A stretch of 64,000 nt of DNA from Chloroflexota bacterium (GTDB taxonomy: Bacteria > Chloroflexota > Anaerolineae > B4-G1 > DUEL01). Both the position numbers and the translations under genes were made by a program. The notes under the pieces are model-generated. The model was given only the letters and a program-made list of their open reading frames with translations, was not told where the DNA came from and did not search any database. This document shows, one piece after another, positions 1-62,104 of the stretch; positions within the stretch are counted from its first letter, which is position 1, and each line of letters begins with the position of its first letter. The DNA is taken from NCBI GenBank assembly GCA_014874475.1, contig JADBJJ010000012.1:62001-126000 (forward strand). The letters are read 5' to 3'.

Positions 1-2418
1 CCGGTGCCGCCGACGCCCACGCCAGCCCCTCGCTACGGTGCCTGGCTGGATGAGGTTGTCTTCATCGGTATCGGTGGCGATGAGAATGCGCTGCCCCGGC
101 TGGAAGGTGGAGACATTGACCTCTACGGCCACGGGATCGGCGGCCCCGAGAACCTGGCTAAGGTGAAGGCAAACCCGGATCTGACCTATACTATGGCCTT
201 CGGGTCGTACAACGAAATCACCTTCAACCCGATTCTGAAGTTCAAAGATGGCCGCCTCAACCCCTTCGGTGACCCCCAGATTCGCGAGGCTATGAACTGG
301 GCGGTGGACCGGAACTACATCGTCCAGGAAATCTTCGGCGGTTTGGCGACCTCCAAACTCCTGCCTCTGGTCTCCGCCTTCCCGGACTATGTCCGCTACA
401 TCGACGTCGTGCGGGCCCTGGAGGCCAAGTACGCCTACAACCTTGATAGAGCCAAGGAGGTCATCTCCCAGCGAATGACCGAACTGGGCGCCGAACTGGG
501 GCCAGACGGGAAGTGGACCTACGAAGGGGAAACCATCACCCTCGTCTTCATTATCCGGACCGAGGACCAGCGGAAAATCATCGGCGACTACGTCTCCAAC
601 CAACTGGAGGCTCTGGGCTTTGCGGTGGACCGCCAGTATAAGACCCGGACGGAAGCCTCCCCCATCTGGGTCGGGTCGGATCCGGCGGAGGGTCTGTGGC
701 ATTTGTACACTGGCGGGTGGATCACCACTGTGGTAGAGCGGGATGCAGGCAGTAACTTCGCCTTCTTCTATACGAACCTGTTATACCCTATCCCGCTACA
801 TCAGGCCTACACGCCCAGCGAGGAGTTCTTTAATGTCGCCCAGCGGCTCGCCAACAACGACTTCAAGTCTATGGCAGAGCGGGACGAACTCTTCCGGAAA
901 GCGTTGGAACTGGCTATGCAGGACTCGGTCCGGGTCTGGCTGGTGGACCAGTTCTCCTTCACGCCGCGCCTGGCGAAACTGGAAGTGGCGGCCGACCTAG
1001 CAGGTGGGGTGGAGGGCTCCCAGTTGTGGCCGATGACCCTGCGCTGGAAGGATCAGGTGGGCGGCAGGGTCCGCTGGGGTCAGCCAGACGTGCTAATTGA
1101 CCCCTGGAACCCCATCGGTGGCTCCAACTGGGTCTACGACACCGATGTCCAGCGGGCTCTCGGCGAGTACGCAGTGGTCTCCGATCCCTACACCGGTCTG
1201 TTCCTGCCGAACCGCATTGAGAAGGCCGAGGTGGTGGTCAAGGAAGGGCTGCCGGTCGCCAAGACGCTGGACTGGGTGAGCCTCCAATTCGCCCCGGAGA
1301 TCCAAGTGCCGGCCGACGCCTGGGTGGACTGGGATGCGGCCAATCAGAAGTTCATCACTGCCGGCGAGAAATTCACCGAGACCCAGACCGCCAACGTCAA
1401 GGTAACGGTCTACTATCCGGCGGACCTCTTCCAGAAGGTCAAGTGGCACGACGGGAGCCCGTTGACCATCGGGGACTTCCTCATGACGATGATTATGACC
1501 TTTGACCCCGGCAAGGAGGAGAGCCCCATCTTTGACGAGGCTCAGAAGAGCGCCCTGGACAACTTCCTGACCCACTTCAAGGGTGTCCGCATCGTCTCCA
1601 CCGACCCGTTGGTCATTGAGACGTACGATGACCTCTTCTACCTGGACGCCGAAAACAACGTCACTGCCGCCACCACCTGGTGGCCGTACTACTCCTACGG
1701 TCAGGCGCCGTGGCACGCCTTGGCTATGGGCTATCTGGCCGAGGCCAATAAGGAACTGGCCTTCACCAGCGACAAGGCGACCGCTCTGGAGGTGGAGTGG
1801 ATGTCCTTCGTCGCCGGGCCGAGCCTGGATATCCTGAAGAAGTATCTGGACCAGGCGGCGGCGGAGAAGTTCATCCCCTACGCGCCCACGCTGGGCCAGT
1901 TCGTGACGGCCGAAGAGGCAGCAGCCCGCTACGCCAATATGGCCAAGTGGTATGACCAGTACAAGCACTTCTGGGTCGGTACCGGGCCCTTCTATTTGGC
2001 CCAGGTGGATGCCACCGCTAAGACGTTGCTGCTGAAGCGCAACGAGGCTTACCCCGACCCGGCGGAGAAGTGGGCCGGCTTCGGCGTGCCGAAGATCCCG
2101 GTGGTGGAGGTGGAAGGCCCCGGTCAGGTGACCAAGGGTCAGGAGGCGAAGTACGACGTGTACGTGACCTTTGAAGAGGAGCCGTACCCGTCGGACGAAA
2201 TCGCCAACATCGTCTACTTGATCTTTGACAGCCAGGGCAACCTGCTGACGAAGGGCAACGCCGCTTTCGTTGCGGAGGGCCAGTACCAGATAGTCCTCTC
2301 CGGCGATGTCACCTCCCAGTTCCCCGCTGGCGCGGCGAAGATGGAGGTGGCGGCTACCTCCAAGATAGTCAGCACGCCAGCCTACGGCACGGTTGAGTTC
2401 GTCGTGGTGGCTCCATAG
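1..2418 (+). CDS. Oligopeptide-type ABC transporter substrate-binding protein (5' partial)
   Basis: The reading frame is open from the first base, so the N-terminus and signal peptide lie outside the window; more than 800 residues are visible. The family-5 solute-binding fold is recognisable: a segment reading PQIREAMNWAVDRNYIV near residue 95 is the typical 'first-residues-of-the-helix' signature, and a second one, KWHDGSPLTIGDFL, is near residue 483. It would bind peptides or similar ligands outside the membrane and deliver them to the permeases encoded next (2773 and 3907). It is longer than the usual 500-600 residues; C-terminal residues from about 700 look like a beta-sandwich extension. 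It ends at a terminator, while the permeases have their own promoter. Confidence 0.88.
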   Translation, partial: PVPPTPTPAPRYGAWLDEVVFIGIGGDENALPRLEGGDIDLYGHGIGGPENLAKVKANPDLTYTMAFGSYNEITFNPILKFKDGRLNPFGDPQIREAMNWAVDRNYIVQEIFGGLATSKLLPLVSAFPDYVRYIDVVRALEAKYAYNLDRAKEVISQRMTELGAELGPDGKWTYEGETITLVFIIRTEDQRKIIGDYVSNQLEALGFAVDRQYKTRTEASPIWVGSDPAEGLWHLYTGGWITTVVERDAGSNFAFFYTNLLYPIPLHQAYTPSEEFFNVAQRLANNDFKSMAERDELFRKALELAMQDSVRVWLVDQFSFTPRLAKLEVAADLAGGVEGSQLWPMTLRWKDQVGGRVRWGQPDVLIDPWNPIGGSNWVYDTDVQRALGEYAVVSDPYTGLFLPNRIEKAEVVVKEGLPVAKTLDWVSLQFAPEIQVPADAWVDWDAANQKFITAGEKFTETQTANVKVTVYYPADLFQKVKWHDGSPLTIGDFLMTMIMTFDPGKEESPIFDEAQKSALDNFLTHFKGVRIVSTDPLVIETYDDLFYLDAENNVTAATTWWPYYSYGQAPWHALAMGYLAEANKELAFTSDKATALEVEWMSFVAGPSLDILKKYLDQAAAEKFIPYAPTLGQFVTAEEAAARYANMAKWYDQYKHFWVGTGPFYLAQVDATAKTLLLKRNEAYPDPAEKWAGFGVPKIPVVEVEGPGQVTKGQEAKYDVYVTFEEEPYPSDEIANIVYLIFDSQGNLLTKGNAAFVAEGQYQIVLSGDVTSQFPAGAAKMEVAATSKIVSTPAYGTVEFVVVAP

Positions 2419-2463
2419 TCTGCTAGGGCCGACCACAGGATAGCATAGTGTTGAGGAAGCGCG

Positions 2464-2511
2464 AGCCCGATGGGGGTCATCCGGGATCACTTCGCCCCCG
2501 TCGGGCTTTTC
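2464..2511 (+). terminator. Intrinsic terminator after the binding-protein gene
   Basis: A 13-bp stem (2464-2476 with 2495-2507, one G-T wobble) is followed by TTTTCTT. It lies 46 bases after the stop codon and separates the abundant binding protein from the membrane components. The rest of the 354-base gap to 2773 holds only the promoter listed next. Confidence 0.85.
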
Positions 2512-2655
2512 TTACAAAAAAGCAACCCCGCCCGGACGCAAACGGCCAGGTCCAGGAAACGAAGCCCTCCGGGCTATTCAGCCTCTGGAGGGGCGCTTCG
2601 CAAGGTGAGATCAGCCGTTTTGCGACTTAACGTATTATTCCGGCCATAGCCTCTT

Positions 2656-2685
2656 TTGACTCCTATCATCCCCAGTCGGTAGAAT
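2656..2685 (+). promoter_or_regulatory. Sigma-70-like promoter for the permease/ATPase genes
   Basis: TTGACT at 2656-2661 and TAGAAT at 2680-2685 with an 18-base spacer, about 80 bases before the first permease start. It would let the transporter core be expressed apart from the binding protein. Confidence 0.6.
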
Positions 2686-2772
2686 GAGGAGGCGGCGGGC
2701 GGAAAGGGGTGCTCAAATATTTGATTTCGGGCAGCAGAGTTTGAACCAGTCGGATTTGTAAGGGGGATTCCA

Positions 2773-3891
2773 ATGTCTGATCAGGTTCTGGCGATTCCGC
2801 GGAAGAGAGCCGGTACATCCTTTGTGCAGAGCAGCATGGTTCGCGTCCTGCGATACACTCTGGTGCGTGGGGTCACTCTGTTCATCACCGTGCTCGTCGG
2901 AGTCTACCTGACGGTCCTGGTCGCCAATATGGGCGGCTACGTGGACCAGATTCGCAAAGGGGAAATCCGGGAGAACATCATGATTCAGGTGATGAACAAC
3001 CCGGCGCTCCGGAATTTGAGCCCGGACGCTAAGCGACAACTGGTTGAAGAGAGGGTTCGCCTGGAGGAGCGCCGGCTGGGTCTGGATCAACCTTTCCTGA
3101 TTCGGAGTTTTCGGTTTCTGGAAAACGCGCTCACCCTGCGCCTGGGTTTCGCCCAGTTGATGAACAGCGACTCCGGCTCCCGGCAGGTGAAGTTGATCCT
3201 CCTGGAGCGATTGCCCGCAACACTTCTGCTCTTCGGTACGGCTAACCTTTTCATTTTCTTTCTGAGCCTTTTTCTTGCCCTCATTCTCTCCCGCCAATAC
3301 GGGAGTTTGTGGGACCGGTTGTTTGTGGTTCTTTCGCCCACCTCTTCGGCGCCCGGGTGGTTCTACGGCATCTTCCTGATCCTCATCTTCGCAGGCTGGT
3401 TGCGCCTTCTGCCCTTCGGTGATCTGGTGGATGCTCCGGCGCCTCAATCACGCATCCTCTACGCGCTGAGCGTGGGGAAGCATATGATTTTGCCAATTAT
3501 GGCGCTGACGTTGAGTTCCATCTTCCTCAGCGTCTACAGTTGGCGGACGTTCTTCCTGATTTACTCCAGCGAAGATTACGTGGAACTGGCGAAAGCCAAG
3601 GGGCTGAGCGGACGGACCATTGAGCGACGCTACATCCTGCGGCCCACCCTTCCCACCATCGTGACCAACTTCCTGCTGACGATCATCAGCCTGTGGACGG
3701 GCGCCCCGATTTTTGAGACGGTCTTCAACTGGCCCGGCCTGGGACGGGCGCTCTACCAAGCGGTGGGCTTGTTTGACGTCCCCGTCATCGTGGGCTCCAC
3801 AGTGATTTTCGCCTACCTCCTGGCGGTTACCGTCTTTCTGCTGGATATCATCTACGCCATCCTGGACCCACGAGTTCGGGTCGGCGCATAA
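2773..3891 (+). CDS. ABC transporter permease, DppB/OppB type
   Basis: Inner-membrane channel subunit of the peptide-type importer, 372 residues. A first membrane helix (about residues 35-57) is followed by an external/charged segment and then five more helices from about residue 148. The EAA-type loop is visible around residues 275-300 (DYVELAKAKGLSGRTIERRYILRPTLP split over the coupling helix). The start ATG is preceded by AAGGGGG. It pairs with the permease 15 bases downstream and the two ATPases after it. The segment between helices 1 and 2 is longer than in Escherichia coli DppB. Confidence 0.9.
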   Translation: MSDQVLAIPRKRAGTSFVQSSMVRVLRYTLVRGVTLFITVLVGVYLTVLVANMGGYVDQIRKGEIRENIMIQVMNNPALRNLSPDAKRQLVEERVRLEERRLGLDQPFLIRSFRFLENALTLRLGFAQLMNSDSGSRQVKLILLERLPATLLLFGTANLFIFFLSLFLALILSRQYGSLWDRLFVVLSPTSSAPGWFYGIFLILIFAGWLRLLPFGDLVDAPAPQSRILYALSVGKHMILPIMALTLSSIFLSVYSWRTFFLIYSSEDYVELAKAKGLSGRTIERRYILRPTLPTIVTNFLLTIISLWTGAPIFETVFNWPGLGRALYQAVGLFDVPVIVGSTVIFAYLLAVTVFLLDIIYAILDPRVRVGA

Positions 3892-3906
3892 CGAGGGAAT
3901 GAGAGG

Positions 3907-5265
3907 ATGCAAACCGTAAAGGATGCACTTCGGGAAATTCGGCGATACCCTTCGGCTATTGTAGGGTTACTCATCGTCATCCTGCTGGTCGTTCTTTCCG
4001 TTTACGTGGTCATTGCAATTCCCTACCAGGAAGCCATCACCCTCTGGCGCGGTGGGGATGACATCTGGCGTAGCCTGCCCCGAACCGTCCCACCAGCGTG
4101 GATCAATCACTTCCGGTCGCAGAAATTGCCGGAGACCATCGCTCTGGATTCCCGCAAAGGGGCTGCGGAGCGCCATGAGGCCCCCCTGGGCGATGGCAAG
4201 TCCATCACGCTCCTCTACTCCTTTGACTACCAGGCAGATGACTTTCCGCGAGAGATCAACATCTTCTTTGAGACCTCCTTTAAAGAGCGAGCGCCTTTCG
4301 CTTCCATCACGTGGTATACACCCGATGGGCGGGAAATCTCCATTGCGGATATTGCCCTCTCGGTAGGTTCCAGCAGTTACCGCTTCAATCAGGACGATAA
4401 ACTGCTCCGCCGAATCCGGCGTCAGGTTGGAGACGTGCCGGTGGAGGTGGGGCTCCTTGTAGCCCCCGATCCGGGGGAAAACCCGCAACCGCTGAAAGGG
4501 ACCTACCAGGTAAAAATCCAGGTCACGGCGTTTGACCCGGAGACCCAATTGGATGCCGAACTGGTCGTTTATGGAAAAGTTCACGGCATCGCCGGCACTG
4601 ACCACCTGCGGCGCGACCTGAAAATCGCCCTTCTCTGGGGCGCACCGGTGGCCCTGGCTTTCGGCCTGCTGGCTGCTGCTGGCACTACCATCACCACGAT
4701 GATTATTGCGGCTATCGGCGTCTGGTTCAGCGGGTTGGTGGATAACCTGGTTCAGCGCATCACCGAGGTCGTAATGATGCTCCCCCTGCTCCCCATCCTG
4801 ATTATGGTGGGCACCTTCTACTCCCGGAGCATCTGGATCATCCTGGGGGTCACCATCTTGCTGAGTGTCTTCGGGAGCGGTATCAAGACCTACCGGGCCG
4901 TCTTCCTGCAAGTTCGGGAATCCCCCTACGTGGAGGCTGCCCAGGCCTATGGCGCCGGGGACTGGCGGATCATCTTCCGGTACTTGGTACCCCGGATTGT
5001 GCCGATGCTGATCCCCAATCTGGTCACGCTGATCCCGTCCTACGTTTTCTTGGAAGCCTCTCTGGCTGTGCTGGGGCTGGGTGACCCCCAGTTGCCCACG
5101 TGGGGGAAGGTCATCCAGGACGCCGTGGCTAACGGCGCGCCGTACAAAGCGCTCTACTATTGGGTCCTGGAGCCAGCCGTCCTCCTGATGATTACCGGTC
5201 TGGGTTTTGCTATGCTGGGCTTCTCCCTGGACCGCATCTTCAATCCACGCCTGCGGGAGATGTAG
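3907..5265 (+). CDS. ABC transporter permease, DppC/OppC type, with large inserted domain
   Basis: Second channel subunit, 452 residues. Helix 1 is at about residues 17-37, then roughly 175 residues of soluble beta-rich sequence before the remaining helices begin near residue 230. The EAA coupling loop (SPYVEAAQAYGAGDWRIIFRY, read in two parts) is near residue 340. Typical DppC proteins are about 300 residues, so the soluble insertion between helix 1 and helix 2 is unusual and would lie outside the membrane, perhaps docking the oversized binding protein. The stop codon is two bases before the next start, implying coupled translation. Confidence 0.88.
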   Translation: MQTVKDALREIRRYPSAIVGLLIVILLVVLSVYVVIAIPYQEAITLWRGGDDIWRSLPRTVPPAWINHFRSQKLPETIALDSRKGAAERHEAPLGDGKSITLLYSFDYQADDFPREINIFFETSFKERAPFASITWYTPDGREISIADIALSVGSSSYRFNQDDKLLRRIRRQVGDVPVEVGLLVAPDPGENPQPLKGTYQVKIQVTAFDPETQLDAELVVYGKVHGIAGTDHLRRDLKIALLWGAPVALAFGLLAAAGTTITTMIIAAIGVWFSGLVDNLVQRITEVVMMLPLLPILIMVGTFYSRSIWIILGVTILLSVFGSGIKTYRAVFLQVRESPYVEAAQAYGAGDWRIIFRYLVPRIVPMLIPNLVTLIPSYVFLEASLAVLGLGDPQLPTWGKVIQDAVANGAPYKALYYWVLEPAVLLMITGLGFAMLGFSLDRIFNPRLREM

Positions 5266-5267
5266 CC

Positions 5268-6230
5268 ATGCGCGAAAGGGAACCGGTTCTGCGAGCAGAG
5301 GATCTGGTTTTGTATTTTGTCACCACCAAAGGAGTGGTGCAGGCGGTGGATAAGGTCAACCTGTCTATCCCTCACAATCAGGCCATTGTGGTCTTGGGGG
5401 AATCGGGATGTGGCAAAAGTTCGCTGGCGCGAGCCCTTCTCCGCCTGTTGCCGAGAAATGTGTACCGGTACTCGGGCAAAGTCTATCTGGACGGCCGGAA
5501 TGTGATGGAACTGGATGAGGAAAACTTTGCCCGCGAAGTCCGGTGGATGAGCATTTCTATGGTCCCCCAGGCCGCGATGAACGCTCTCAATCCAGTGCTG
5601 CGGGTGGGGGACCAGGTGGCGGAGCCCGCCATCCTCCATCTGGGAGTGAGCAAAGATGAGGCCTGGGATATGGCCCGTAAGATGTTTGACTACGTAGGCG
5701 TCCCGGAAGGGTTTCTGCAGCGGTATCCCTTTGAACTCAGCGGAGGGATGCGGCAGCGGGTTGCCATCGCGATGGCTCTCATTACGATGCCCAGCCTGAT
5801 TATCCTGGATGAGCCCACTTCCGCTCTGGACGTACTGACCCAGGCCAGCATTATGAACACGCTCAAGCAAATCAAGCAGGAGATGCCCATCAGTTATATG
5901 CTGATCACCCACGACATCGCGACCTCCTCCGACCTGGTGGAGCATGTGGCGGTGATGTACGCCGGACAGATTTTGGAGGTCTCCGCAGCGGAGTTGTTCT
6001 TCAAACAACCGCTCCACCCCTACTCCCGGAAACTGCTGGCGGCAGTGCCACGCCTCTACGAGAAGCAGGCCCTGGAATTCATCCCAGGCAGGCCACCGAG
6101 TTTGCTGAATCCGCCCACGGGCTGCCGCTTCGCTGACCGTTGCCCGTCTCGCTTTGAACGTTGCGACCAGGACCCGCCTACCCTGACGGTAGAGGGTCAT
6201 CTGGTCAAATGCTGGCTCTATGCGGGTTGA
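5268..6230 (+). CDS. Oligopeptide ABC transporter ATPase, DppD type
   Basis: First of two nucleotide-binding subunits, 320 residues. Walker A GESGCGKSS is near residue 45, the signature LSGGMRQRV near residue 160, Walker B LIILDEPTSALD near residue 180. The C-terminal oligopeptide-transporter extension is present with its cysteines (PTGCRFADRC...RC). I chose the ATG at 5268, two bases after the upstream stop, rather than the longer frame from 5160, which would overlap the permease by over 100 bases and has no family support. Confidence 0.92.
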   Translation: MREREPVLRAEDLVLYFVTTKGVVQAVDKVNLSIPHNQAIVVLGESGCGKSSLARALLRLLPRNVYRYSGKVYLDGRNVMELDEENFAREVRWMSISMVPQAAMNALNPVLRVGDQVAEPAILHLGVSKDEAWDMARKMFDYVGVPEGFLQRYPFELSGGMRQRVAIAMALITMPSLIILDEPTSALDVLTQASIMNTLKQIKQEMPISYMLITHDIATSSDLVEHVAVMYAGQILEVSAAELFFKQPLHPYSRKLLAAVPRLYEKQALEFIPGRPPSLLNPPTGCRFADRCPSRFERCDQDPPTLTVEGHLVKCWLYAG

Positions 6231-6268
6231 ACAAGCGCACCGATTGATCTCTGCATCCAGGTGGGAAA

Positions 6269-57551: not shown

Positions 57552-58145
57552 CTACAGTGAGACCACTTTCCCCGCCTGCATCATCGTCTCGGCGATAGTG
57601 TACATGTTGGACACTTCGCCGACGGCGACCTTCTCCTTCAGACCGTAGTACCCCAGACAGGTGCCGCAGGTGAGAATCTGGACCCCCTGATCCACCAGCG
57701 TGCGCAGGTCCTCCAGCACGGGCGACTCCTCCACCACCAGTTTCACCCCGCTGTTAAAAAAGATGATGACATCGGGCAGGGGACTGACCTCGTTCAGGGT
57801 ATGCAGGAAGCCCCGGATGAGGATGTGTCCCAGTTCTTCGTGTTCCCCGCGCCCCATAAATTCGGAGGGAATCACCAGGACCAGCGGGCCACCGGACGGG
57901 GATGATGCTGGGGCCGGGGAGACCGTCGGAGATGTTTCGCCCCGGGCGATGTGCAAATAAATCCCCGCTTCTCGCTCCTCGGCCCGGACGGTATACCCTG
58001 CCCTTTCGGCCATCCGGGTCACGTTGTGGCGGGCGGTATCGCTATCCACAATCGTCGTGACTGTGTCGCTTTCCTTCAGTGCATTGCGGGTCAGCAGCAC
58101 CGGTTGGGGACAGGGGAGTCCCCGGGCATCCACAACTTTTCCCAT
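57552..58145 (-). CDS. yedF: Selenium-metabolism protein YedF (TusA + DsrE fusion)
   Basis: 197 residues. Residues 1-70 are a TusA-like domain with VVDARGLPCPQP (Cys12). A linker leads to a DsrE-like C-terminal domain (about 88-197) with HILIRGFLHTL and LTCGTCLGYYGL. This exact fusion is the YedF family found with SelD and YedE in organisms using selenium. Last gene of the operon; its end lies seven bases from the convergent parB stop with no terminator between. Confidence 0.92.
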   Translation of the reverse strand: MGKVVDARGLPCPQPVLLTRNALKESDTVTTIVDSDTARHNVTRMAERAGYTVRAEEREAGIYLHIARGETSPTVSPAPASSPSGGPLVLVIPSEFMGRGEHEELGHILIRGFLHTLNEVSPLPDVIIFFNSGVKLVVEESPVLEDLRTLVDQGVQILTCGTCLGYYGLKEKVAVGEVSNMYTIAETMMQAGKVVSL

Positions 58146-58171: not shown

Positions 58172-59323
58172 CTACCTACGGGCCAGCCGCGCCACGGCCC
58201 GCAGCGCCGCGTCCACGTCCTCCTGCGTGTTGAAAACCCCCAGCGCAAAGCGGACGGTACCGGAGGGGAACGTGCCAATGGTACGGTGGGCTGCTGGCGC
58301 GCAGTGGAGCCCCACCCGGCACAGAATGCCGTACTCCTCGTCCAGCCGTATCCCCACTTCCGAGGGCTCCATCCCGGCAACGTCGAAAGAGATGATGGCC
58401 GTTCGCAGGCGCGCGTCGGCCGGCCCATAGATGGTCACCCCGGGGATTTCCCGCAGGCCGTCCGACAGTCGCTGGCTCAACTTTACCTCGTGAGCACGGA
58501 TGGCCTCCACCCCCTGCTCCAGGACCCAGCGAACTCCGGCCTCCAGACCCGCCAGCCCCACTGCGTTGGGCGTCCCACTCTCGCACATATCTGGCAGGAA
58601 GTCCGGCTGCTCCTCCCGCTCCGACCGGCTTCCCGTCCCGCCTCGGATGAGGGGACGGAATTCCTCCAGCGGCACTCGTTCCCCAATAATGAGGCCGCCC
58701 GTGCCCATTGGCCCGTAGAGGGACTTGTGCCCGGTGAAGGCCAGCAGGTCAATGCCATCGGCCTGTACGTCTATGGGTACGGCGCCTCCGCTCTGCGCTG
58801 CGTCCACCAGGAGCAGCGGGCCGTTCATCTGGCGGAGGGCCCGCCCCACTTCCGCCACCGGCAGGAGGGTTCCGGTCACGTTGGAGGCGTGGTTCAAGAC
58901 GACCAGGCGGGTATAGGGTCGCAGGGCCGAAAGGACGGCCTGCGGGTCCAGCAAGCCCTCGGGGGAGCAAGGGGCCATGGTCATCTCCACCCCCTCCCGC
59001 TCCAGCGCCCGCAGGGGCCGCATTACCGCGTTGTGCTCCATGCTGGAAGTGACAACGTGGTCACCCGGCCGCAGCAGGCCCCGCAGGGCCAGGTTGATGC
59101 CTTCTGTGGCGTTGAGGCCGAAGACGACCCGCAGGGGGTCGGGGGCATTGAAGAGGTGGGCCACCGCCTCGCGCGCGGCGTAAATTATGCGCCCGGCCTC
59201 TACGGAGAGCCGGTGTCCGGAACGGCCCGGGTTGGCGCCCACCTCCGTCAGAAAGCGAGCCATCGCTGCCAGAACCTGGGGCGGCTTGGGCCAGGACGTG
59301 GCCGCGTTGTCCAGATAAATCAT
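58172..59323 (-). CDS. Cysteine desulfurase-like class V aminotransferase (selenium operon)
   Basis: 383 residues. PLP lysine in FTGHKSLYGP (near 203), the N-terminal YLDNAATSWPKP, and an active-site cysteine in GLHCAPAAH (near 341). The length and sequence match the family often found next to yedF and selD, which may free selenium from selenocysteine or deliver it to SelD. The ATG overlaps the selD stop (ATGA). Sulfur delivery cannot be excluded. Confidence 0.9.
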   Translation of the reverse strand: MIYLDNAATSWPKPPQVLAAMARFLTEVGANPGRSGHRLSVEAGRIIYAAREAVAHLFNAPDPLRVVFGLNATEGINLALRGLLRPGDHVVTSSMEHNAVMRPLRALEREGVEMTMAPCSPEGLLDPQAVLSALRPYTRLVVLNHASNVTGTLLPVAEVGRALRQMNGPLLLVDAAQSGGAVPIDVQADGIDLLAFTGHKSLYGPMGTGGLIIGERVPLEEFRPLIRGGTGSRSEREEQPDFLPDMCESGTPNAVGLAGLEAGVRWVLEQGVEAIRAHEVKLSQRLSDGLREIPGVTIYGPADARLRTAIISFDVAGMEPSEVGIRLDEEYGILCRVGLHCAPAAHRTIGTFPSGTVRFALGVFNTQEDVDAALRAVARLARR

Positions 59324-60402
59324 TCCGCCCTCCGTGCAGCGGAAGATGAATCTTGCGCTACGACTTCTATCCCCGGCTCACCGTCCACCACCTCCCCCAC
59401 CTCCCAGAAGGGCTGGTCCAGCGCGCGACCCGCTTCGGCAAAGCGGCCCATTTCAGCGGCGGGGATGGCCGCCAGAATCCCTCCGTTGGTCTGGGCATCG
59501 TAGAAGAGCATCCGGACCTCTTCGGGAATGGACGGATCAAAGGTCACCCACTGACGGAAGTGCATCTCGTTGGCCGCTGTCCCGCCGGGGAATAGCCACA
59601 GGTCGGCCAGAGGACGGGCGGCCTCCAGGATGGGGACCCGGTCGGCCCAGACCTGGAAGCGGACCCCCGCCGCCAGCGCCATCTCGGCTGCGTGGCCCAG
59701 GAAGCCGAAGCCGGTGATGTCAGTGGCCCCGCGAGCGGAGGTGGCATGGACGGCCCGGACCGCCTCCCGGTTCAGCCGGAGCATCCAGGGGACGGCCTGG
59801 GCCAGCGCCTCCGGGGAGGCCTGTCCGGCCCGATAGGCGGTGGTGATGACGCCAGAGCCCAGGGGCTTGGTGAGGACCAGCCGCTCCCCCGGCCGCGCGC
59901 CGCCTTTCAGAAGCAGCCGCTCCGGGGCCACCGTGCCGATGACGGCCAGGCCGTACTTGGGCTCCCTATCGTCCATCGTATGCCCGCCGGCGACGATGAC
60001 GCCCGCTTCCCGGGCCTTCTCCAGCCCGCCCCGGAAAATGGCGGCGGCGATCTCCGGCGGCATGTCTGAGGGAATGGCGGCCAGGTTGAGGGCCAGGAAG
60101 GGCGTCCCGCCCATCGCGTAGACGTCGCTGATGGAGTTGGCGGCGGCGATGGCGCCGTAGGTGTAGGCGTCGTCCACCACTGGCGCAAAGAAATCGGCCG
60201 TGGCAACCAGCAGGGTGCCGTTCTCCATCCGGTAGACGATGGCATCGTCAGGAGAGCCGAGCCCCACGACGACCCGTTCGTTTTCTTCCAGCGAATCCAG
60301 CAGAGGGCGCAGGACCTGCGCCAGGGCCCCAGGGGCCAGTTTCCCCGCTCAACCTGCGCAGGAAGCAATCTGAGTCAGCCGAGTGAAGTCTCTTTTGGGC
60401 AT
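59320..60402 (-). CDS. selD: Selenide, water dikinase with in-frame UGA (selenocysteine)
   Basis: SelD makes selenophosphate from selenide and ATP. Starting at ATG 60402 (AGGAGG five bases upstream), codon 18 is TGA at 60351-60349; reading it as Sec gives SCAGUAGKLAPGAL, aligning U with catalytic Cys17 of the Escherichia coli GAGCGCK motif. The next 342 codons are open with SelD motifs GSPDDAIVY, TADFFAPVVDD, AANSISDVYAMGG and AGGHTMDDREPKYG. Total 360 residues, normal length. A caller that stops at UGA gives a truncated protein from 60267 lacking the active site. The last residues come from a palindromic repeat. Confidence 0.95.
59334..59361. repeat. Palindromic element copy 5, inside the end of selD
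   Basis: Arms GTGCAGCGGAAGATG and AATCTTGCGCTAC. It is read as the last residues of SelD (VAQDSSSAARRA), past the usual family C-terminus. Confidence 0.65.
60325..60351 (-). promoter_or_regulatory. selD UGA and downstream SECIS-like hairpin
   Basis: After the UGA (60351-60349), bases 12-15 and 21-24 pair (GGCC with GGCC) around the loop CCUGG, placing two G residues at positions 19 and 20 after the UGA, the distance expected for a bacterial SECIS apical loop. Bacterial SECIS elements lie inside the coding region like this. Confidence 0.7.
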
Positions 60403-60460: not shown

Positions 60461-60670
60461 TCACCGCGTCAGCGTCAATTTGAACTCGTCCCCCACTGCC
60501 TCTACCTGCACCTTGAGGCCGGCCCGTTCGGCGGCCCGGCGCACGTTCTCGCGAGAGGTGACGGTATCCACCAGCACCTCAATGGGGAACTGCCCTTCTT
60601 CCATTGCCTGCCGAGCCAGAATGACCGGCTGGGGGCAGGAGAGGCCCCGCGCATCTACAACTTTCGCCAT
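60461..60670 (-). CDS. TusA/SirA-like small sulfur- or selenium-carrier protein
   Basis: 69 residues starting at ATG 60670 after AGGAGG. MAKVVDARGLSCPQP with Cys12 is the carrier-cysteine motif. In this operon it may bind selenium taken up by the YedE transporter and pass it to SelD; sulfur transfer is the classical role. It is similar to the first domain of the YedF protein three genes downstream. Confidence 0.88.
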   Translation of the reverse strand: MAKVVDARGLSCPQPVILARQAMEEGQFPIEVLVDTVTSRENVRRAAERAGLKVQVEAVGDEFKLTLTR

Positions 60671-60683
60671 TGTGGCACCTCCT

Positions 60684-60710
60684 GTAGTGCAAGATTCATC
60701 TTGCGCGCTC
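60684..60710. repeat. Palindromic element copy 6, covering the yedE stop
   Basis: Arms GTAGTGCAAGAT and ATCTTGCGCGC. On the minus strand it supplies the end of yedE (codons GCA AGA TGA). Confidence 0.65.
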
Positions 60711-61814
60711 GCGCATCGTGAAGCCCAGGACAATGCAGAAGGCCAGTCCGATGAGGACGGCGGCCTGTCCGTAGGGGCCGGGTCCGCCGACGGTCAACAC
60801 ACCCTCGGCCAGTTTGTCGGGGACTCCGGTCAGAGCCCAGTTGTGGGCGAAGCCGGCGCCGAAAATCATCCCCAGGACGAAGATGCCAGCATCGCCGTCG
60901 CCCTCACCGGAGAGGAAGAGTTGACGGCCCGGACAGCCGCCCGCCAGAAGGAAGGCCAGGCCGGCCAGCGCCATCCCCAGGAAGTTCCAGAGATGGTTGG
61001 AGTGGGCTATTGGCTGGGCGGCGAAGCCCAGTTTGAATTGTCCCAGGGCCAGGTTGGTGACCAGCGCTACCACAAAGAGCGCGCCGGCGCCACTGAGGAG
61101 ATGGGTATCTCTCATCAGGATGACGTCTCGCAAGGCGCCCATTGTGCAGAAGCGGGTTCGCTGGGCCAGGAAGCCGATGACCAGCCCCGCAGCCAGGGAG
61201 ATGAGAAGGGGGGCGTGTTTGGAGCCGGGCCCTTCCACGCTGAAGAAGATGGGGCCGTCTTTGGTGAACTGGGGGCGGAAGAGGAGGAGCAGGAGGAGAC
61301 CCAGCATAATGGCGGGCGTCATCCAGCCCACGGGGGCCGGCGCCGGGCGGCTACGGCCCATGGAGTAGCCCCGCTTGAGGAAGACGACGCCGAGGGCGAT
61401 CCCGGCGACCAGCCCGGCGGTGCCCACCAGGCCGTTCAGGTCGCCGCCCGCCAACCGCAGGAGGGCGCGCCAGGGACAGCCCAGGAAGGTCAGGGCGCCG
61501 ACCATAGCGAACATGCCCAGGAAGAAGCGGATGATGGGGGCGGAGCCAGCGCGGGGCTTGAACTCCCGGAAGAGGAGGGCGGCGATCAGGGAGCCCAGGA
61601 CGAAGGCGATGATTTCGGGCCGGATGTACTGGACGGTGGCAACCCGATGGAGGCCCAGGGCTCCGGCGATATCCCGCTCAAAGCAGGCCACGCAGATACC
61701 CATATTGGTGGGGTTGCCGGCCTTCTGGAGGAGTGGAGCCAGGAGGCCGATGACCGCTCCGGCCAGGAGGATGCCCCAGCGCGAAGCGAAGAAACGGGTG
61801 AGACGTTCGGACAT
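60696..61814 (-). CDS. yedE: YedE-family selenium transporter
   Basis: 372 residues, about ten membrane helices. Two half-repeats each carry a cysteine motif: NMGICVACFERD (near 38), FLGCPWRALLR (near 110), RFCTMGALRD (near 223) and LAGGCPGRQLFLSGEGDGDAG (near 300). These match YeeE/YedE thiosulfate-type channels, and the YedE branch co-occurs with selenium genes. ATG at 61814 follows GGAGG (the frame extends upstream through an attenuator and is not coding there). First structural gene of the operon. Confidence 0.9.
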   Translation of the reverse strand: MSERLTRFFASRWGILLAGAVIGLLAPLLQKAGNPTNMGICVACFERDIAGALGLHRVATVQYIRPEIIAFVLGSLIAALLFREFKPRAGSAPIIRFFLGMFAMVGALTFLGCPWRALLRLAGGDLNGLVGTAGLVAGIALGVVFLKRGYSMGRSRPAPAPVGWMTPAIMLGLLLLLLFRPQFTKDGPIFFSVEGPGSKHAPLLISLAAGLVIGFLAQRTRFCTMGALRDVILMRDTHLLSGAGALFVVALVTNLALGQFKLGFAAQPIAHSNHLWNFLGMALAGLAFLLAGGCPGRQLFLSGEGDGDAGIFVLGMIFGAGFAHNWALTGVPDKLAEGVLTVGGPGPYGQAAVLIGLAFCIVLGFTMRERAR

Positions 61815-61884
61815 AGTGCGTACCTCCGTAATGTGAATTCTCCACGCGACCGGGCAGTGGCCCGGGCACGGCGTGGGCAACAGA

Positions 61885-61916
61885 AAGCCGCCGCCGGCCT
61901 GCGCCGACGGCGGCTT
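61885..61916 (-). terminator. Intrinsic terminator in the yedE leader (attenuator)
   Basis: On the minus strand a 14-bp stem with a GCAG tetraloop, closing with CUU and followed by U-rich UCUGUU. It lies between the operon promoter and yedE, about 70 bases before the ATG, so transcription must pass it for the selenium genes to be expressed. Confidence 0.85.
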
Positions 61917-61940
61917 CAGGAGGCGCGCTCCATATCCGTC

Positions 61941-62048
61941 TCAGGGTACGGCATCATCGCCGCCCCCGGACGCAGGCCCAGCGGTCTGCGGGCGCCAACC
62001 GGCGCCCCAGCCTTCAAATCAGGTGCGGCGGTGATACCAGAGGATCAT
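61941..62048 (-). CDS. Leader ORF of the selenium operon with in-frame UGA
   Basis: ATG at 62048 is preceded by AAGGAG (62059-62054) at five-base spacing, a stronger site than many genes here. Nine codons (MILWYHRRT) end in TGA at 62021-62019. If that UGA is read as Sec, the frame continues 25 codons to a second TGA at 61943-61941, just before the terminator. The residues after the first UGA show no redox motif, so the act of translation rather than the peptide is likely important. Either the nine-residue or the 35-residue product could be made. Confidence 0.55.
61990..62021 (-). promoter_or_regulatory. SECIS-like hairpin after the leader UGA
   Basis: After the UGA (62021-62019), bases 12-18 (GGGCGCC) pair perfectly with bases 23-29 (GGCGCCC) around the loop GGUU, which occupies positions 19-22. 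In the Escherichia coli fdhF SECIS the essential loop G and U are at positions 20 and 21 after the UGA; here they are G and U as well. Confidence 0.65.
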
Positions 62049-62075
62049 CTTTGCTCCTTTGCTGATGCTGCTGAA

Positions 62076-62104
62076 AGTATACCTTAAGATCGCGAAGAAC
62101 GCAA
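62076..62104 (-). promoter_or_regulatory. Promoter of the selenium operon
   Basis: Minus strand TTGCGT (62104-62099), 17-base spacer, TATACT (62081-62076). Transcription would start near 62069, giving a leader of about 255 bases before yedE. Confidence 0.7.

Follow-up and report, generated by a model that had tools for sequence, protein, structure and literature searches.

A UGA- and SECIS-containing leader upstream of yedE in Chloroflexota: a probable transcription attenuator that senses selenocysteine decoding

What does the leader between a promoter and yedE, the gene for a putative selenium transporter, do with a short open reading frame (ORF) that ends in UGA and is followed by a SECIS-type hairpin and a terminator? 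We analysed this locus in a 64-kb stretch of DNA (64,000 nt; the window) from a 3.0-Mb Chloroflexota genome, whose nearest named relatives are Anaerolineae/Thermoflexales MAGs. The leader and the operon behind it comprise the following features:

62076..62104, minus strand: putative sigma-70-like promoter, TTGCGT - 17 nt - TATACT (62104-62099 / 62081-62076), from sequence
62060-62054, minus strand: ribosome binding site (RBS) of the leader ORF, AAAGGAG, from sequence
62019..62048, minus strand: leader ORF MILWYHRRT, ending in UGA (62021-62019), from sequence; the UGA is found in all leaders
61990..62007, minus strand: SECIS-type hairpin GGGCGCC-GGUU-GGCGCCC, 7 bp, from offset enrichment and covariation
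61941..62018, minus strand: read-through frame of 25 codons with second stop UGA (61943-61941); frame kept in relatives
61958..61979, minus strand: antiterminator arm A (region 2), GGGCCTGCGTCCGGGGGCGGCG, from its pairing with the terminator 5' arm and loop
61885..61916, minus strand: intrinsic terminator hairpin (regions 3 and 4), 14 bp, -30.6 kcal/mol
60696..61814, minus strand: yedE, putative selenium transporter (TIGR04112, 481.9 bits)
60461..60673, minus strand: TusA/YedF-N-like protein of the yedE operon (TIGR03527, partial, 50.4 bits)
59320..60402, minus strand: selD (TIGR00476, 299.8 bits; the match lies downstream of an in-frame UGA)
58172..59323, minus strand: cysteine desulfurase/selenocysteine lyase-like protein (TIGR01977, 455 bits)
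57552..58145, minus strand: yedF (TIGR03527, 205.6 bits)

The leader ORF reads ATG ATC CTC TGG TAT CAC CGC CGC ACC TGA (62048-62019), and its HRR codons form region 1, able to pair with the 3' half of arm A. The GGUU loop of the hairpin (62000-61997, +19 to +22 after the UGA) starts 18 nt downstream of the UGA. The tail behind the terminator is of the CUUUCUGUU type, and its U tract in the window is modest to weak. Most relatives carry promoter-like sites at a similar distance (mean score 9.6 vs 8.1 for shuffled sequences) and an RBS-like match of 4-5/6 upstream of the leader ORF. A preliminary description of this DNA had listed a promoter, an RBS and a short ORF ending in UGA, and these match the sequence base for base; the 7-bp GGUU-loop hairpin that it placed at +19 to +22 is found at 62007-61990, and the 14-bp intrinsic terminator that it reported is indeed followed by yedE (ATG at 61814). 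Its second in-frame UGA is present at 61943-61941, but the spacing of 26 codons needs rewording: this UGA is the 26th codon, with 25 codons between the two stops.

The genome encodes selenocysteine (Sec) machinery, namely selA (581 bits), selB (344 bits, with a neighbouring stretch), tRNA-Sec (72 bits) and selD. A tRNA scan of the 64-kb window found no tRNA gene. It also carries a UGA-containing fdhA with a SECIS loop, GGUCU, 18 nt after the UGA. The selD of the yedE operon has an in-frame UGA at its catalytic position (60351-60349, minus strand; CAG-U-AGK), which recurs in related genomes; selD is thus probably a selenoprotein itself, and if so would rely on the Sec supply that it helps to make. 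The desulfurase encoded at 58172..59323 scores 380 bits against the SclA model, under that model's cut-off.

Conservation of the leader is extensive. Twelve genomes of the same order contain yedE, and a UGA leader is present at every locus with readable upstream DNA. A scan of species-representative genomes yielded 86 non-redundant yedE upstream regions, in which a tetraloop on a stem of 6 bp or more lies at offset 18 after TGA 32 times, vs ~3.7 expected; the same test gave 2 cases for TAA and 0 for TAG. The loops are mostly GGUU, GGUC or GGAC. Besides many Anaerolineae, among them the isolate Ornatilinea apprima (L057), the leader occurs in MAGs that carry the labels Fermentibacteria (L054) and Fibrobacterota (L072). 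Most leader peptides end in HRRT, with silent changes among their codons (CAC/CAT, CGC/CGT/CGA, ACC/ACA/ACT). A second group (L037, L045, L047, L053, L057, L073 and L080) has different peptides and keeps the UGA-18-loop layout and the arm pairing, with mostly GGUC in the loop. The terminator is present in all but two of the 32 leaders examined, plus L008. The UGA, hairpin and terminator, whose conservation the preliminary description had left to be checked in relatives, are kept across several families, as is the frame.

The hairpin stem also covaries, in agreement with a covariance check that had been proposed for it. In 27 gap-free aligned leaders 188 of 189 cells of the apical stem are paired, and both sides have changed in 6 of its 7 pairs; since the members of this set were picked partly for having a stem, the independent evidence is the offset enrichment together with the unselected order-level set.

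The reading frame behind the UGA is kept as strictly. In 42/42 leaders its first stop falls between the antiterminator arm and the terminator, vs 11/42 for each of the other frames; after thinning to <75% identity the counts are 33/33 vs 8/33. Insertions 18, 24 or 27 nt long do not disrupt this frame, and L135 and L011, where the hairpin has moved by 1-2 nt, regain it. Every leader has UGA as its first stop, while the second is TGA in 20, TAG in 13 and TAA in 9. A kept frame, an invariant UGA and a varied second stop together argue for read-through of the first UGA by ribosomes, and we see no other explanation for the combination. The kept frame is the strongest sign that ribosomes may pass this codon.

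How could read-through be coupled to transcription? The preliminary description had proposed that GGCGGC (61964-61959) competes for the terminator arm GCCGCC (61914-61909). This pairing holds as part of a longer duplex, in which 61979-61958 engages almost all of the terminator 5' arm and loop (-41.3 kcal/mol); none of 200 shuffles gave a duplex as strong. In the leaders, region 2 spans roughly +40 to +61 from the UGA. Across 44 leaders the antiterminator pairing has a mean z of -3.2 relative to dinucleotide shuffles, with at most 2 of 200 shuffles matching it in 29/44, and the duplex is stronger than the terminator in 38/44; in L048, L050, L136, L138 and L141 the pairing is no better than in shuffles. 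Compensating changes in the two arms can be seen by eye (GCACACGUC/GGCGUGUGC in L009, CUGCACAUGCC/GGUAUGUGCAG in L015 and GCAUACGCCAA/UUGGCGUAUGC in L073). Antiterminator and terminator are mutually exclusive in silico. A hairpin before the second stop, GGGGGCGGU..ACCGUGCCC, was considered as a separate element and rejected, its 5' side being mostly region 2.

Folding places the ribosome in control of this choice. When the antiterminator arm is masked, 41/41 leaders fold into the terminator. When the RNA is folded before the terminator 3' arm is made, the median number of antiterminator pairs is 16.2 with a ribosome at the UGA vs 1.6 with a ribosome on the arm. Region 2 pairs with region 3 in 34/42 leaders without a ribosome and in 37/42 with a ribosome at the UGA. 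Where the second stop lies at about +76, a ribosome resting there leaves most of region 2 uncovered, and 25/42 leaders still form at least 8 pairs with the ribosome at the second stop. At equilibrium with a ribosome at the UGA the terminator is still favoured in 23/41 (all foldings refer to 37 °C, and some host organisms may live hotter); the ON state therefore depends on a kinetic argument. In L036, L056, L074 and L115 the leader codons (region 1) can form a long and very strong pairing with the 3' half of region 2, which the preliminary description had not noted. This pairing shows compensating changes in the order-level set; its mean z is only -1.5, and it is absent from most Anaerolineales forms.

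These features lead us to propose, with good confidence, that the leader controls transcription by ribosome-mediated attenuation and that what it senses is the decoding of selenocysteine. In this scheme a ribosome would translate the short leader as far as the UGA. When the Sec-tRNA-SelB complex is scarce, it would wait there or be released, leaving region 2 (61979-61958) free to pair with region 3 before region 4 is made, and yedE and the rest of the selenium operon would be transcribed. When the complex is abundant and has bound the SECIS hairpin, the UGA would be decoded as Sec; the ribosome would then proceed to the second stop and cover region 2, the terminator would form and the operon would be switched off. 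In some leaders that carry no ribosome, region 1 may hold region 2, giving a trp-like choice among 1:2, 2:3 and 3:4 pairings and thereby an additional OFF state when the leader is untranslated. We infer Sec insertion itself, its timing and the response to selenium from the architecture of the leader; the direction of the response, OFF with Sec, is predicted from folding and homeostatic logic. In E. coli, efficient UGA recoding depends on a sufficient selenium concentration, which supports the sensor idea, and recoding is slow at the UGA, which poses a kinetic difficulty for an attenuator (PMC4513850). To accommodate slow recoding, the attenuator would probably need RNA polymerase pausing.

The same leader could operate with the opposite sign, read-through favouring expression so that selenium would turn the operon on, for instance if a ribosome at the second stop blocked structures that otherwise free the terminator. 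In leaders with this stop at about +76 its position is compatible with such a scheme, as a ribosome parked there has most of region 2 upstream of it and pairing with region 3 could occur. However, region 2 is already paired with region 3 in most leaders when no ribosome is present or when one waits at the UGA, covering region 2 yields the terminator in every leader folded, and in L045, L073 and L080 the second stop follows directly behind region 2, so that read-through must cover it. We regard the opposite sign as unlikely. Less likely still is direct regulation by SelB, with or without Sec-tRNA, bound to the SECIS-like hairpin in the manner of E. coli selAB and without read-through. The conserved hairpin would fit, as would SelB scores above the cut-off in the window's genome and in 17/20 leader genomes tested, yet direct control leaves unexplained why an invariant UGA sits at a fixed distance from the hairpin, why the leader ORF is conserved and why the frame is strictly kept while the second stop varies.

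Two further readings dispense with sensing. The leader ORF could encode a real small selenoprotein whose product matters, the terminator merely limiting its expression; conservation of the ORF and frame, and of HRRT before the UGA with silent changes, would be expected of such a gene. The residues after the UGA, however, track RNA elements (GAGWR corresponds to the hairpin and GGG to the antiterminator arm) or else vary widely, the Anaerolineales forms do without HRRT altogether, and no redox motif is found near the UGA, which makes a functional product improbable. That a chance ORF and an ordinary terminator happen to lie between promoter and yedE would be conceivable in GC-rich DNA, where open frames and hairpins are common, but it fails to account for the offset enrichment, the covariation, the copies found with a covariance model, the frame and the arm pairing; we give it practically no weight, a chance origin being excluded by the conservation of the leader.

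The attenuator that we propose combines two known systems. Attenuators of the trp/his/leu type likewise have a short ORF with a regulatory codon and an antiterminator exclusive of an intrinsic terminator; a 1:2 pairing that involves the leader codons is an optional further element, which some of the present leaders may share. Those leaders, however, govern amino-acid operons and stall ribosomes at sense codons, whereas here the regulatory codon is a single UGA with a SECIS, sensing is directed at selenocysteine, the outcome at the codon is termination vs recoding, and the genes controlled serve selenium uptake and activation. As in these attenuators, the terminator precedes the first gene and the antiterminator, in silico, excludes it. 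With the UGA-SECIS elements of fdhF and fdhA the leader shares a GGU-type loop 18 nt downstream, a stem of 7-8 bp and a Sec-decoding genome; the likeness to fdhF noted earlier holds, the E. coli fdhF loop having GGU at the same offset from the UGA as in the window. Like them it offers an in-frame UGA in a putatively translated ORF and a loop G at a fixed distance. It differs from them in that UGA and SECIS lie in an ORF of ~35 codons that encodes no recognisable enzyme and is coupled to a terminator.

A SECIS-like 5' element in E. coli selAB mRNA was reportedly described by Thanbichler and Boeck in 2002, and would resemble the leader in placing a SECIS-like RNA ahead of selenium genes. That element acts on selAB translation and is not known to involve a leader ORF or UGA read-through, whereas the leader has a conserved UGA, frame and terminator. 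The leader shows neither a conserved ligand-binding core nor, in Rfam, any counterpart among known metabolite riboswitches, and its conserved bases are explained by the ORF, the SECIS and the arm pairing. Rfam scans of the window region and of three other leaders returned no family at the gathering threshold and no credible weak match, and a literature search, with most subscription journals outside its scope, retrieved no description of a leader of this kind; within these bounds, the earlier statement that it has no described counterpart stands.

We are fairly confident that the leader is the first transcription attenuator with a recoded stop as its regulatory codon, one that gauges selenium by attempting Sec insertion and controls genes for uptake and activation. 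The union of ribosome-mediated attenuation with UGA-SECIS recoding should surprise specialists. Selenium homeostasis and its regulatory network were described as 'not fully understood' in a 2015 comparative study (PMC5322559). If our reading is true, it would answer directly how a large group of Chloroflexota senses selenium, add a recoded stop codon to the repertoire of leader-peptide attenuation, and provide a natural reporter of Sec-insertion efficiency as well as a search key for selenium transport genes.

Does the leader belong to yedE or to selenium genes in general? A class-wide covariance-model search found one copy each in 36/396 genomes; one of these copies, L180, has no terminator and was judged false, and two matches added by a phylum-wide search (L172, L173) are intragenic and were read as false positives. 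The extra leaders L177 and L178 have the read-through frame and arm pairing of the others. In G007 the gene behind the leader is Sec-selD, and in G010 and G315 it is csd; a search for yedE gave no match in either G007 or G010. In G307 (L187, G307:C2:238800-246000, 142-3395) it is followed by a yedF-like gene for a YedF C-terminal-domain protein, and further genes there encode OsmC-like, acyl-CoA dehydrogenase-like and SBP-like proteins, the last weakly related to putative selenate-binding proteins. In G131 (L182, G131:C68:6500-13715, 349-6246) a TIM-barrel gene, a PhnSUT2-like ABC transporter (binding protein, permease and ATPase) and selD follow, making this a candidate selenium ABC transporter. 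In G384 (L183, G384:C323:28900-35500, 471-4238) the leader stands before a PCC-domain gene and an ECF-type transporter (S, CbiQ-like T and double ATPase components), a candidate for selenium regulation. Found ahead of selD, csd, yedF and transporters, settings that the preliminary description had not included, the leader goes with selenium genes in general and not specifically with yedE, and its regulon, if the attenuator reading is true, would name new selenium transporters, namely the ABC transporter of the selD operon and the ECF-type transporter.

Presence of selB fails to separate yedE loci with a leader from those without, because nearly all genomes with a yedE locus have selB. Individual leaders depart from the common layout. 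In L010, upstream of yedE, a hairpin that brings its own T tract is inserted into the terminator and splits it (GGGATTTCGC...GCGAAATCCCTTTTCTTTTT). L056 and L120 have two in-frame UGA codons (CGC TGA ATT TGA) directly before the SECIS hairpin, an arrangement that suggests a double Sec requirement. Most yedE loci of Deltaproteobacteria lack the leader, and three Desulfobulbaceae have a divergent form (L142, L143 and L144, upstream of yedE) with an RBS, the peptide pattern M-x-x-R-UGA-x-UGA and a downstream hairpin. Its GGUNC loop lies 19 nt after the second of the two in-frame UGAs, and the divergent leader is possibly an independent or ancient version.
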